DNA of 38,947 bases from positions 1 to 38,947 of the forward strand of contig CANGCO010000016.1 of assembly GCA_947452365.1 (NCBI GenBank), written 5' to 3'. The notes below the pieces were generated by a model that was not told the DNA's origin, made no database searches, and saw nothing but the letters and a program-made list of their open reading frames with translations. A program made the translations under genes and the position numbers. Source of the stretch: Caulobacteraceae bacterium (GTDB lineage Bacteria; Pseudomonadota; Alphaproteobacteria; Caulobacterales; Caulobacteraceae). This document shows, piece after piece, positions 3,507 to 10,302 of the stretch. How positions within the stretch are numbered: position 1 is the first letter of the stretch; each line of letters begins with the position of its first letter.

Positions 3507-4619
3507 CTAGCTGCGCCATTGTAAGATGGCGGCCTGAACCGGATTAATAAAGGCCCGGCCTTCTTTGCGGCTGGCGGCCCATTCGCGCTTAAGCGCCTGA
3601 TACCATTTGGCCTGGCGGTCGGCGTCGTCAATCCAGAGCAGGGCCGGGTCATATTTCAGGCCCATATTCTGCAAATTGACCATATGGCCATCTTGGCGCA
3701 GGAAGGCCCGAGCGCCGGCGGCAAAAAACGGGGCGATAAAGCCAAAGACCGGATGGTCTGACCAGACAATCTGGGTGATCTGGGTCTTGTCCTGGGCCAT
3801 TGGCGTCAGGCAGGTCAGGGACAGGACCTGGCGCTTGCCGACGGTAATGTGTTCCCAGCGCATGCCGGGAAGGCGGAAAGTGATCTCGGTCAGGGGCTCG
3901 CCGCCCAATATGGCATAGGCGCGGCTGTTTTTGGACGGCGCGTGCCGAACCATGGCAAAGCCGGCATCGGTCGGCTCAAAACGCTTGGCCTTGGCATGCT
4001 GGCTCTTGGCCGAACGCCACCACCATTGCGCATGCACATAGGGCCCATGCGCGGGGTCCATGAGGCCCACCACAGCATGGTCAATATGCACGTCAAACAC
4101 CATCTGATCGACCAGTTTGGGCTTGCCGCCGACAACGCCTGGAAAAACCGGCGGCGCATGGTCGGGCTCGGCCTCGCTGCGCGGATCTGTGGCCATCCAG
4201 ATAAAGACTAGGCCTTGGGTTTCCTGAACTGGAAACCGTCGCACCTTAATGCGCTCTAGCTCTAGGCCCTGGCCCTCGACCATGGACGGGATCTTGCTAC
4301 AGACGCCGTCGGTGCGAAATAGCCAGCCATGATAGGGGCATTCCACCGCCTCGGCCCCAGCATCATCGCGCGTTAGGCGGCCAGCCGACAGGGGCGCTGC
4401 CCTATGCGGGCAAATGTCGCGCAGGCCATAGACCTGTCCCGCCAGGGTGCGGCCAATCAAGACCGGCTCGCCCAAGATCTCAAACCGCTGAAGTTTGCCA
4501 GGCTTTAAGGCCGACCCAAGGGCGGCAAAATACCAGGCATCCAGTACAAAGCCCTGGCCAAACCCAGCCCGGGCATCGGGGCGGCCAGCATTGGAGGTCA
4601 GGGTGGTCGGCTTGGTCAT
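3507..4619 (-). CDS. Rieske [2Fe-2S] ring-hydroxylating oxygenase, alpha-subunit type
   Basis: 370 residues from ATG at 4619; a TTG 12 codons upstream is less likely. The Rieske domain spans about 25-145 with ligands C70-P-H72 (DICPHRAAPL) and C94-P-Y-H97 (ECPYHGW). The mononuclear iron site reads D188-PA-H191-GPYV-H196, the expected D-x2-H-x4-H pattern, with the remaining ligand expected downstream. The C-terminal part is SRPBCC-like and ends in QAAILQWRS. Such enzymes take electrons from a separate reductase to hydroxylate or demethylate hydrophobic rings, sterols or carotenoid-like substrates; the substrate cannot be told here. No reductase or ferredoxin gene lies nearby. The end is 22 bases from the ftsY start on the same strand. 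Confidence 0.85.
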   Translation of the reverse strand: MTKPTTLTSNAGRPDARAGFGQGFVLDAWYFAALGSALKPGKLQRFEILGEPVLIGRTLAGQVYGLRDICPHRAAPLSAGRLTRDDAGAEAVECPYHGWLFRTDGVCSKIPSMVEGQGLELERIKVRRFPVQETQGLVFIWMATDPRSEAEPDHAPPVFPGVVGGKPKLVDQMVFDVHIDHAVVGLMDPAHGPYVHAQWWWRSAKSQHAKAKRFEPTDAGFAMVRHAPSKNSRAYAILGGEPLTEITFRLPGMRWEHITVGKRQVLSLTCLTPMAQDKTQITQIVWSDHPVFGFIAPFFAAGARAFLRQDGHMVNLQNMGLKYDPALLWIDDADRQAKWYQALKREWAASRKEGRAFINPVQAAILQWRS

Positions 4620-5954: not shown

Positions 5955-7067
5955 ATGTCCCCGGTAACCCTGGTCTTTCCGTCTTCCATGATGCAGTCGC
6001 ACGCCTTTACCCGCCTGGCCAAGGCGCGCGGCGACCGGGTGATTGCGGCGTCTTCTGTTAAGGCCGACGAGACCGCCAAGCATTATGACTATTGGGTCTA
6101 TCTGCCCTCCATGTATGACCCGAGCTTTGGTGAGGCGCTTGCGGATTTGATCGCATCTGAGGGGATCACGCATTTTTATACGCCGCACATGGTTATTCAT
6201 CCGGCGGTCAAGGCGCTGGTTGCCAGAGAGTCTTTACCGATTACCGTCTGCGAGGATCCGATTGAGACCCTTCAAGGACAGTATCGCGACGTATTTGCTC
6301 ACGCTCAATCTGCCGCGCCCTTTATTCGCGCGATCAGTGGGTTTGACCTGCCAGAGGCACTTGTGGCCTCACTGTTTCATTTTGGCGAGCAAATCTATGG
6401 CCAGACCAGTGAGACCAAGATTGCCGCCATGGCTGCGGTTTGTGCAATCGCCCCAAAAGGGGACTTGATTGAGATCGGGTCGGCTTGGGGACGTAGCGCC
6501 TTTGTCCTTGCGACATTGGCGGCACATTTTGACACTGGGAACCTGCTTTGTATCGACCCCTGGGCAGTGGAAATTGCCCACCAGAGTAGTGATCAAGAAT
6601 ACTTGACCCAAGCCATTGGCGCCATGGATTGGGAGGCGACGTTTCAGGCGTTTTTAATCCATATGTTGCCGTTTGGTCGGCGCGTGAATTATCTGCGATC
6701 AACCTCGGCCCAGGTTGCCGCGCTTTACCGGCACTCAAACCCGGCTGTCTCGTCAGAACTTGGCACCACCTCCTATACGGGGCGCGCTGCGGTCATCCAT
6801 ATTGATGGCAATCATGGCCTTGAATGCATTGAAGAGGATTGCCGCTTATGGCGACCCTGCCTCTTGCCGGGTGGATGGTTGATTATTGATGATTATGTTT
6901 GGGAGCATGGAACAGGCCCGCAGCAGGTCGGCGATGCCTTGATCGAAAACGAGCGGGCAAACATCGCATGTGCATTTGTGGCCGGGAAGGCCCTGTTCAT
7001 AAGGTTTAAGGCGGACGCGGTGCGCGAGCGCCTGCACAGTTTCGTCGATTCGGGGGCGATATCATGA
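5955..7067 (+). CDS. Two-domain class I SAM methyltransferase
   Basis: 370 residues from ATG at 5955. An earlier ATG at 5895 lies inside the aminotransferase gene, so the later start is preferred. Residues 1-110 form an alpha/beta segment (TLVFPSSMMQSHAFTRLAKA, then DYWVYLPSMYD and EGITHFYTPHM) resembling the pre-ATP-grasp domain in front of some ligases, but no ATP-grasp domain follows. Residues 165-340 are a class I methyltransferase: motif I DLIEIGSAWGRSAF (170-183), acidic LLCIDPW (Asp201), then IHIDGNH and LPGGWLIIDDY, as in the Methyltransf_24 and cephalosporin-hydroxylase-like groups. The stop overlaps the next start by ATGA. The acceptor is probably a sugar or glycan given the neighbours (inference). 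Confidence 0.75.
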   Translation: MSPVTLVFPSSMMQSHAFTRLAKARGDRVIAASSVKADETAKHYDYWVYLPSMYDPSFGEALADLIASEGITHFYTPHMVIHPAVKALVARESLPITVCEDPIETLQGQYRDVFAHAQSAAPFIRAISGFDLPEALVASLFHFGEQIYGQTSETKIAAMAAVCAIAPKGDLIEIGSAWGRSAFVLATLAAHFDTGNLLCIDPWAVEIAHQSSDQEYLTQAIGAMDWEATFQAFLIHMLPFGRRVNYLRSTSAQVAALYRHSNPAVSSELGTTSYTGRAAVIHIDGNHGLECIEEDCRLWRPCLLPGGWLIIDDYVWEHGTGPQQVGDALIENERANIACAFVAGKALFIRFKADAVRERLHSFVDSGAIS

Positions 7068-7684
7068 TGCGTAATCGCGCGAGCTCTCAGCCCGGCAATC
7101 CTTTTGACCCCGGCTATTTCACGTCAGACGAGCTAGTGGGCCTGGGCTTCAAAAGCATCGGTCGAAATGTCAAGATTGCCAAGAACTGCACCATTATTGG
7201 TCTGCACAATGTTTCGATCGGATCGAATGTGCGCATAGATGGATACAGTGTGCTCGCGGCGCACTCCGGATACCTCGATATCGGAAGCTATATCCATATT
7301 GCCGGCGGCGGCCATTTGAGTTGTGCTGGCGGCATTACAATTTCAGATTTTTGCAACCTTTCGCAAGGCGTGCGGATTTATTCTGTTTCAGATGACTATA
7401 GCGGCGCGTCTTTGACCAATCCGACCATACCGGCCCAGTATCTGAACCTTACCAAGGCCCCGGTTCAGCTCGGACGTCATGTGATTATTGGGTCAGGCAG
7501 CGTCGTGCTCCCAGGCGCAAGGATCGGCGAGAGCACCGCCATTGGTGCCCTGTCTCTCGTCAACACGTCGCTGGCCGCATGGGGCATTTATGCGGGAACG
7601 CCGACGCGATGGATCAAGGCGCGGTCGAAAGACCTGCTGCGGCTTGAGGCGCAGTTATCCTTGGCCGATAACCCACTAGGCTAG
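7064..7684 (+). CDS. Left-handed beta-helix (hexapeptide repeat) acyltransferase
   Basis: 206 residues, translationally coupled to the methyltransferase (ATGA overlap at 7064-7067). Hexapeptide-type repeats run from about 35 to 120 and 145 to 185: NVKIAKNCTIIG, NVSIGSNVRIDG, YLDIGSYIHIAGG, GITISDFCNLSQGVRI, then HVIIGSGSVVLPGARIGES and the closing GIYAGTPTRWIKAR, which is the usual end of CysE/LacA/WbbJ-type trimeric O- or N-acetyltransferases. An inserted loop (about 125-145, YSGASLTNPTIPAQYLNL) holds the acceptor site in such enzymes. The active-site His expected near the subunit interface is not obvious; HSGY near residue 67 is a candidate. With the upstream aminotransferase it could acylate an amino sugar. 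Its last four bases overlap the end of the convergent GT41 gene. Confidence 0.85.
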   Translation: MMRNRASSQPGNPFDPGYFTSDELVGLGFKSIGRNVKIAKNCTIIGLHNVSIGSNVRIDGYSVLAAHSGYLDIGSYIHIAGGGHLSCAGGITISDFCNLSQGVRIYSVSDDYSGASLTNPTIPAQYLNLTKAPVQLGRHVIIGSGSVVLPGARIGESTAIGALSLVNTSLAAWGIYAGTPTRWIKARSKDLLRLEAQLSLADNPLG

Positions 7685-9879
7685 GGCGCCGAATTGGCCT
7701 CCTGTCGCTCACACCAGTCGCACCAAACCTTGATGAGGGCCGCCTCATAGCCTTCAGTAAAGGCCTTTGGATTTGTCATGGGGCTATGGCTGAGCTTCTG
7801 GCGAAGGCTTGAGCGGATAGCGCTTAGCTCATCGATTCGATTGGCCCAGCTGACCGCCTTTTCAACGTATTCCGCCTCTGACCGGGCGACCAGATCAGTG
7901 AGTCCAAGCTTTGTCAGATAACTATCGCCAATGCGGGATACGAGCATTTGGCCGCGCATAGAGATTTGCGGCACGCCCATCCATAGGGCCTGAAGGCAGG
8001 TGGTAGCAGCATTATAGGGGAAGGTGTCCAGCATGAGATCGACCTCATTATACTGGCCCAGATAGTGCGCCATGTCGGTTGCGCCCTCAAACCGCAATCG
8101 TGCCGGATCAACCCCCATGGCCGCAAACCGGTCGCGATAGGACTGGCAGACATCCTCTCGGTCAAACCCGGCGGTTTTGAAATAGAGTTTGGCGTCTGGG
8201 GTTTTGCGAAGAATCTCCGCCCATAATGCCAGGGCGCGGTCCGAATGTTTGCCATGAACGCCAAAACAGCCAAATGTGAAGTGGCCATTGCGAAGGGCCG
8301 GCGGCGGCCCAACCCTTATGTCAAACGCGGGCAGCTTATAGCAGATGCTGCTGACCGGCAGCCTCAAGGGGGTTTCAGTATAGAGATATTCATCTTCTGG
8401 CGGCAGCAGGTCCTTATCTGTAATGATGTAATCCATGGTCGCCAGCCCGGTCGTGTTGAAATACCCGATCCAGGTGGCCTGAATAGGCGCAGGCTTACGC
8501 GCAAAAACCTGTAGTCGCGCTAGGCTCGTGTGTCCCGAGAGATCAATGAGAATATCAATGCCATCGGTCATAATCATATTGGCGGCCCTATCATGAGAAA
8601 TATTGTTCAGTGAACGCCAATGATCAGCATAAGACCTCAACTTTTGCGTGACCGCATCGAAATCTGGGTTCACAGCATAGCAATATATTTCAAACCTATT
8701 CTTGTCGTGAAATTGAAGGACCGGCGTAATATAGTCAGCAACAGGATGGTTTTTAAAATCACCGGATACATAGCCGATTTTCAATCTCCGGTTCGGATCG
8801 GATGTATTGGCATGCGAGGTCTGCGCCTTAATCGACCCCATATATTTTTGCACCAAGGCCTTGGTGGATTGGGCAATATCTTCGGGAACAAGATTGGAGT
8901 CGTAGTGCATTGAGAAGATTATTTGTCCAAACCCGGCATCTTCTGAAATTGCAGAGCGGTCGAGGGCCTTTCGGGCCCATTTCCCCGATTCAACCAGATT
9001 GCCTTTATGGTTATGGATAATCGAGGTGTACTGACAAAAACTTGCCTCTTCTGGAAATAATGCAACTGCACGTTCACTAATGACGATCATGTCATCAATC
9101 TTATTTTGGTTCATAAGCGCCATGAGCAGGAAGTCATAAGCCTGATTTAGCAATGAATTGGCCGCGCTTGCGCTATGAATTGGATCATCCACAAATGCTC
9201 TGAGTATGGTCTCTGCCTGTTGATTTTTCTGTTGAGCGACATATAAAACCCCCCGCTCAACAACAAAAGCCTTGTTTCCGGGCGAGATTTGTTCAGCTTT
9301 TTCAAGCCAATATTCTGCCTCTTTGAAATTATGATTGGACGAGAATAGGCTGATAACGCTTTTTATTAAATCTAGGTTGTTAGGCTCTAGCTCAATCGCT
9401 TTCAGCATAAATTTAATTGACTCGTTAATGTCACTTTTATTCAAGTACGCGCCCGAAATTAAATAATACTCGAATCCGTTTAATTTATAATCGCCCGAAT
9501 TTAAAAGCCGGACTCCATATTCAATAATTTTTTCTGTAATACCGCGCCTACCATAAATATTAAACAAGACTGACAAAGCACTTGTATTTTTAGGATCTTG
9601 GGCTATCGCCCCTTCCAGTATAGAAATGGCATCATCCATATTGTTTAGGTGGGTGTGTGCCGCCGCTAATTGAAGCTTGTATGATATGTTTTCTGGGTTT
9701 ATCGCGACCGCTTTTTCAAGCGCCTTAACCGCATTCTGGTTCTTCTGGGCCTGCAAATAACACATGCCGAGCAGGCCCCAAAAATCGCCAAATTCAGTGA
9801 ACCGGCCTTGACCGCGGTTTAACAAGTCGATGGCCGCCTCAATCTGGCCGCGCCGCATATGGCTGTCGGCAAGCGCCAA
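7681..9879 (-). CDS. TPR / GT41 (SPINDLY-type O-GlcNAc transferase-like) glycosyltransferase, main part
   Basis: 732 residues if read from the TTG at 9879; no ATG stands at the beginning, and the reading frame continues upstream through one amber codon into the separate 82-residue piece, so this is probably a damaged 827-codon gene. Residues 1 to about 300 are TPR repeats (for example EKAVAINPENISYKLQLAAA and MLKAIELEPNNLDL). From about 360 comes the GT41 catalytic region: LKIGYVSGDFKNHPVADY, SGHTSLARLQVFARKPAPIQ, GCFGVHGKHSDRAL and DTFPYNAATTCLQALWMGVP. Bacterial members often glycosylate flagellin, adhesins or other proteins, or build glycans; the target here is unknown. Base composition of the TPR half is strikingly AT-rich compared with the neighbours. 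It is convergent with the acyltransferase (4-base overlap). Confidence 0.8.
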   Translation of the reverse strand: MALADSHMRRGQIEAAIDLLNRGQGRFTEFGDFWGLLGMCYLQAQKNQNAVKALEKAVAINPENISYKLQLAAAHTHLNNMDDAISILEGAIAQDPKNTSALSVLFNIYGRRGITEKIIEYGVRLLNSGDYKLNGFEYYLISGAYLNKSDINESIKFMLKAIELEPNNLDLIKSVISLFSSNHNFKEAEYWLEKAEQISPGNKAFVVERGVLYVAQQKNQQAETILRAFVDDPIHSASAANSLLNQAYDFLLMALMNQNKIDDMIVISERAVALFPEEASFCQYTSIIHNHKGNLVESGKWARKALDRSAISEDAGFGQIIFSMHYDSNLVPEDIAQSTKALVQKYMGSIKAQTSHANTSDPNRRLKIGYVSGDFKNHPVADYITPVLQFHDKNRFEIYCYAVNPDFDAVTQKLRSYADHWRSLNNISHDRAANMIMTDGIDILIDLSGHTSLARLQVFARKPAPIQATWIGYFNTTGLATMDYIITDKDLLPPEDEYLYTETPLRLPVSSICYKLPAFDIRVGPPPALRNGHFTFGCFGVHGKHSDRALALWAEILRKTPDAKLYFKTAGFDREDVCQSYRDRFAAMGVDPARLRFEGATDMAHYLGQYNEVDLMLDTFPYNAATTCLQALWMGVPQISMRGQMLVSRIGDSYLTKLGLTDLVARSEAEYVEKAVSWANRIDELSAIRSSLRQKLSHSPMTNPKAFTEGYEAALIKVWCDWCERQEANSAP

Positions 9880-9915
9880 GCATGCCTCAAGGAAATGGGG
9901 CCTGGCGGCGAGGGC

Positions 9916-10164
9916 CTATTTTAAAAGCCCGTCACCTTGATCAAAATGCCCAAGCTGACTGAGCATGGCTCCGAGATTGCAAAGCGCTTCCGGCTGGTTG
10001 GGGTTCAGGCTCAGGACCTGTTGGTAAAACCAAGCGGCCTGCTCAAAATTACCGCGAGTTTGGTTTTGTATTCCGGCTTGCAGCAGACTGCCGATCTCGG
10101 CCGACACGGCGGTGGCCTGGTCCGCGCCGGTCTTTTTCTGCATCCTGCGCAATTGACGATTCAT
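9916..10164 (-). pseudogene. Detached N-terminal TPR piece of the GT41 gene (stops at in-frame TAG)
   Basis: 82 residues, ATG at 10164, starting MNRQLRRMQKK. One complete TPR is seen (FEQAAWFYQQVLSLNPNQPEALCNLGAMLSQLG) and a second begins (HFDQGDGLLK), which the TAG at 9916-9918 cuts in the middle of a helix. Read through, the same frame continues ALAARPHFLEACLALADSH, exactly the TPR continuation expected, into the large GT41 frame. A single substitution, such as CAG to TAG, explains it. If the base call is right, this is either a recent null allele or a gene expressed as two polypeptides by restart at TTG 9879. Confidence 0.75.
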
Positions 10165-10302
10165 CTGGACTTCCCGCCTTGATCCTAATGCGCCCGCGAT
10201 GGGCCAGGCATAAGGTCAAGGCGCAAGCCCGAAGGAGCTTGGGTCACGCGACGAACAATACACCGGCCGGATCGAGGTCACCGTCCAGTGTTTGTATGGC
10301 GG

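Follow-up and report, generated by a model that had tools for sequence, protein, structure and literature searches.

The GT41 locus and its interrupted reading frame

The window, that is the whole stretch of 38,947 nucleotides analysed here, is part of contig 16 of an uncultured Caulobacteraceae bacterium's genome (G000) of 2.59 Mb in 133 contigs that is 97.75% complete and 1.83% contaminated. On its minus strand a reading frame opens at ATG 10164, reaches a TAG at 9918-9916 after 82 codons and, without a change of phase, stays open for another 744 codons up to the terminal TAG at 7683-7681, the amber codon standing in the minus-strand context ...GGG CTT TTA AAA TAG GCC CTC GCC.... The features of the locus are the following:

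10165..10225, minus strand: GC-rich hairpin leader directly 5' of the ATG, almost unchanged in the sibling species (fold and alignment)
9919..10164, minus strand: 5' part of the GT41 gene, 82 amino acids, TPR (Pfam TPR_11, TPR_17 and TPR_1 above cut-off)
9916..9918, minus strand: in-frame TAG, codon 83, which is CAG (Gln) in the orthologue of the sibling species
7681..9915, minus strand: 3' part, 744 open codons and the terminal TAG, encoding TPRs and then a GT41 (OGT/SPINDLY-like) catalytic domain (Pfam PF13844; PDB matches 7y4i and 5djs)
9877..9879, minus strand: candidate TTG start for reinitiation, GAGG lying 5 nt upstream (from the sequence; use putative)
9856..9858, minus strand: candidate reinitiation start ATG with no evident Shine-Dalgarno sequence (from the sequence; use putative)
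6051..7695, no strand assigned: stretch that could not be aligned with the sibling species, with a hexapeptide-transferase ORF and the larger part of a methyltransferase ORF

The initial annotation had read this arrangement as a single in-frame amber codon that splits a TPR/GT41 gene, with TPR sequence on both sides, and this description agrees with the domain assignments. TPR families were matched by Pfam in both pieces, and the GT41 catalytic-domain model (Glyco_transf_41, PF13844) was matched in the second piece at 202.8 bits against a cut-off of 25. In the intact orthologue TPR_1 covers residues 58-91, so that the stop at codon 83 lies inside one TPR, as had been proposed; approximately the first two repeats precede the amber codon, and most TPRs together with the catalytic domain are in the 3' part. 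Both halves align without gaps to one orthologous protein of 827 residues, which indicates that the split arrangement is more than a chance neighbourhood of two frames.

The leader upstream of the gene (window 10134-10225, minus strand, CGCCTTGA...TCAAGGCG) is conserved between the two species, with 1 mismatch in 80 bases over 10213-10134, an alignment that runs into the first codons. Folding of 10150-10300 (151 nt) gave a z-score of -2.52, and 3 of 200 shuffled sequences folded as well. Rfam returned only a tRNA over the window and no match at the hairpin leader. The idea that the leader is a repeat element gained no support, the DNA search having recovered it at this locus in two of seven genus genomes, with one partial match of 27 query bases in the sibling genome (G004).

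Relationship to known GT41 enzymes

The best solved-structure matches of the 3' part were SPINDLY (7y4i, E 2.8e-81) and 5djs (E 3e-80), the latter being presumably the Thermobaculum terrenum enzyme. SPINDLY, a protein O-fucosyltransferase, and the O-GlcNAc transferases (5djs, human OGT and Xanthomonas 2jlb) likewise have TPRs ahead of a GT41 catalytic domain, whereas the frame in the window, for a predicted glycosyltransferase, is cut by a TAG after 82 codons. Residues aligned with SPINDLY D491, H495, K665 and T748 are all present in the window protein as read from the alignment; the SPINDLY mutant study describes H495 and K665 mutants as inactive, T748A as much reduced and D491A as active (PMC9715652).

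Within the Caulobacteraceae, FlmG of Caulobacter crescentus is described as a TPR-GT flagellin glycosyltransferase of 596 residues with an N-terminal TPR and a C-terminal GT domain, the TPR part binding flagellin and the GT domain alone neither binding nor sufficiently modifying it (PMC7591256). The likeness to the window gene is one of family and architecture. The window gene differs in its length of 827 codons, in its presence in two of seven genus genomes and in its position beside sugar-modifying genes, and the size of FlmG is closer to that of a shorter GT41-like gene, a 619-codon frame elsewhere in the same genome (G000:C6) with matches in all seven genus genomes. Four flagellin-like matches were found in the G000 genome. 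In a relative, an open frame of 2499 codons (G024:C1:4290743-4297363) contains four GT41 matches in succession and apparently encodes a multi-GT41 protein.

Orthologues and the residue at codon 83

The full-length gene was found in two of the seven genus genomes, the window's own included, the second being the congeneric metagenome-assembled genome of the sibling species (G004, CANGEH010000016.1, isolate Jr-25may17-209). The other five are 63-97% complete, and absence of the gene is firmest for the most complete of them (G005, 97%). The protein of the sibling is 76% identical to that of the window over its whole length with 0 gaps, has no internal stop and carries CAG (Gln) at codon 83. Glutamine, lysine and tryptophan had been named as the residues to look for at this place, and it is glutamine in the one orthologue that covers the codon (1/1). 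With a single covering orthologue, the ancestral state is read without outgroup polarisation.

Neither the seven genus genomes nor 299 family genomes, in which three candidates were scored per genome, yielded another case of this split; a shared split had been foreseen as the observation that would tell against a mutation, and the sole covering orthologue is unsplit. Among the matches listed from these 299 genomes at E <= 1e-60, no other reached the N-terminal region, and the remaining ones start at residue 342 or later. Two matches in a further genome (G023), with 31% identity, begin just after the stop; in one of them (L122), a distant paralogue, the aligned residue is Asp, so that the codon there is a sense codon, though not one for Gln. 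A search of genome contigs returned the one orthologue and one distant match of 22% in Prevotella, which was left unused, and no further genomes of the window's own species were found among the genomes searched. A conserved split or a programmed readthrough gene was rejected, the stop being absent from the only full-length orthologue.

Constraint and age of the event

Pairwise dN/dS against the sibling was 0.155 for the gene (0.195 for the 5' part and 0.150 for the 3' part), a measure that is blind to late relaxation in one lineage. As the ratio is low and similar in both parts, both halves were under constraint during most of the period after the two species separated. In the 3' part 275 one-step nonsense changes are possible and none is present; from these empty sites a crude equal-rate bound would place unconstrained drift at roughly d < 0.03 substitutions per site. 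Given that residues aligned with known GT41 active-site positions are kept downstream and that there is no other stop, the event at codon 83 looks recent, whatever its cause.

Decoding of TAG

That TAG might be decoded as an amino acid, by genome-wide recoding, a suppressor tRNA or programmed readthrough, is suggested by the open frame on either side of the codon and by the expected residue, Gln, which amber suppressors can insert. The initial annotation had judged recoding unlikely on the ground that amber is the normal stop of nearby genes, and the terminators point the same way. Among the 169 ORFs of at least 350 codons in 438,947 bases (20 stretches and the window), 73 end in TAG, 59 in TGA and 37 in TAA, and TAG is thus not depleted. 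It also ends 9 of the 26 other ORFs listed for the window, including the hydrolase at 293 and yggT, two of the genes that had been named; for the third, rpsU, a short motif search of the window gave no match. A CUA anticodon is absent from the 40 tRNAs recovered, a set that is incomplete and contains no tRNA-Tyr, -Phe or -Ile. PF01409 has one match in G000, which we take to be PheRS alpha, as well as matches in 14 of 14 control genomes, and this single match gives no sign of PylRS. The orthologue, moreover, lacks the stop, and the other split gene identified in the assembly (see below) uses TAA. Recoding of TAG was rejected on terminator usage, tRNA content (incomplete set) and the single PF01409 match, and we regard it as highly improbable here.

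Other interrupted genes in the assembly

A codon-usage scan of 439 kb began from 924 stops flanked on each side by 50 or more open codons; 32 stops passed the filter, and in 12 of these the first ATG or GTG lay at least 10 codons downstream or was missing, and both pieces of these 12 were run against Pfam. A domain continuing across the stop was recognised in one of the 12, a TonB-dependent receptor, and five gave too little Pfam signal to judge; L076, L082, L090:2203 and window:12131 had no Pfam match on either side. An earlier version of the scan with different cut-offs had yielded 7 candidates. The TAG at codon 83 passed neither version, which marks the scan as insensitive and its count as a lower bound.

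In the TonB-dependent receptor (L081:2049-4721, on G000:C2) an in-frame TAA at 4290 replaces codon 748, which is CAA in all four covering genus relatives (4/4). There are hence at least two C-to-T stops at Gln codons in 439 kb, those of the GT41 gene and of the TonB receptor, and since the latter is cut by TAA, the amber of the GT41 gene is not special. The pair fits ordinary nonsense mutations, and also an error-prone or strain-mixed assembly. A partial copy of the TonB receptor with 96% identity lies at G000:C45:17503-19131, either a recent paralogue or a product of strain mixture, and it keeps the error-prone or strain-mixed assembly alive as an explanation.

Candidate restart sites

The downstream part had been described as having only a TTG at 9879 and no ATG near its start. 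The TTG is indeed present, 36 nt beyond the amber codon, while the second part of the description was mistaken, as an in-frame ATG at 9858 stands 57 nt beyond the same amber codon. The intact orthologue has the same GAGG and TTG as ordinary coding sequence, so this pair is not an adaptation to the stop. As bacterial translation generally works, termination at codon 83 would yield a TPR stub. If a restart did produce the catalytic domain, the missing first repeats might still impair the choice of substrate, by analogy with FlmG, whose TPR part binds flagellin (PMC7591256).

Origin of the amber codon

We consider the interruption to be a recent nonsense mutation, a single CAG-to-TAG change in the gene of a TPR-GT41 protein glycosyltransferase of 827 residues, and assign this reading a rough probability of 0.68. 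It is favoured because the orthologue is unsplit and carries exactly CAG, the very change that had been offered as an example among the initial options. A single C-to-T substitution would have converted the Gln codon in G000 but not in its one known orthologue; ribosomes would stop after 82 codons and release a short TPR stub devoid of the catalytic domain, with little or no enzyme left. Weak reinitiation at TTG 9879 or ATG 9858 would at most supply an enzyme shortened at its N-terminus, without approximately two TPRs at its beginning, which belong to the region that contributes to binding the protein substrate in relatives; reinitiation could thereby keep some enzyme function, a point against full loss. 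Gain and loss of function is frequent among genes for glycans and surface modification, and the loss may have been tolerated for this reason. The gene shares with ordinary nonsense-interrupted genes, whether recent pseudogenes or polymorphic loss-of-function alleles, the lone in-frame stop, the otherwise open frame and the intact relative, and no feature was found that distinguishes it from them.

A base-call, consensus or strain-mixture error, by which the living population would mostly have a sense codon and an intact gene, is unlikely but deserves serious attention. The draft state of the 133-contig assembly, with its 1.83% contamination, is compatible with such an error, as are the same kind of C-to-T stop in the TonB receptor, the 96% partial copy on another contig, a hint of mixture or duplication, and the otherwise open GT41 frame. 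Isolated substitution errors are, however, rare in assembled consensus sequence; only one other domain-spanning split appeared among the 12 Pfam-checked candidates in 439 kb, with a scan insensitive enough to have missed the focal gene itself, and six neighbouring genes are unbroken in comparison with the sibling species. As far as the assembly goes, the base at 9916-9918 may be real, polymorphic or miscalled, a real mutation being the likelier. We think it doubtful that the amber serves to switch the enzyme off, adaptively or as a polymorphism, with some reinitiation left, in a gene bordering a recombining glycan cassette; were this true, the lineage would have lost one surface or flagellin modification and kept the rest of the cassette. 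It is likewise improbable, to a slightly greater degree, that the locus works as two cistrons, a TPR stub and a shortened active GT41 enzyme started at TTG 9879 or ATG 9858. The in-frame starts shortly past the stop and the retention of the catalytic domain and most TPRs in the 3' part would permit such an arrangement, but the GAG GC..TTG string is plain coding sequence in the orthologue and no second split genome was found. In FlmG, moreover, the GT domain alone neither binds flagellin nor modifies it sufficiently (PMC7591256), although the whole TPR was removed there and about two repeats are lost here.

The nonsense mutation thus remains our preferred reading, and the gene most likely shows an ordinary interruption rather than a novel genetic mechanism. 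Annotations should join the two ORFs into a single interrupted GT41 gene and list them neither as two genes nor as a recoded gene.

Divergence of the gene and a proposed exchange of a glycan cassette

The GT41 gene is strongly diverged from that of the sibling species, with a dS of about 0.98 against 0.21-0.40 for seven compared neighbours, the lowest of these values, that of the methyltransferase (0.21), coming from only 51 codons. The first 100 codons of the GT41 gene have a dS of 0.49, closer to the neighbours. Six neighbouring genes align to the sibling species in one piece over their full or nearly full length, while the equivalent of the unalignable 1.6-kb stretch at 6051-7695 is occupied in the sibling by approximately 4 kb of other sequence, read as ORFs. 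From these two genomes we infer that recombination may have exchanged a glycan-modification cassette at 6051-9700 of the window, one boundary of the cassette falling within the GT41 gene. The apparently swapped sugar-modifying genes and the strongly diverged GT41 gene beside them are more interesting than the stop itself, since they suggest exchange of glycosylation cassettes among close Caulobacteraceae.
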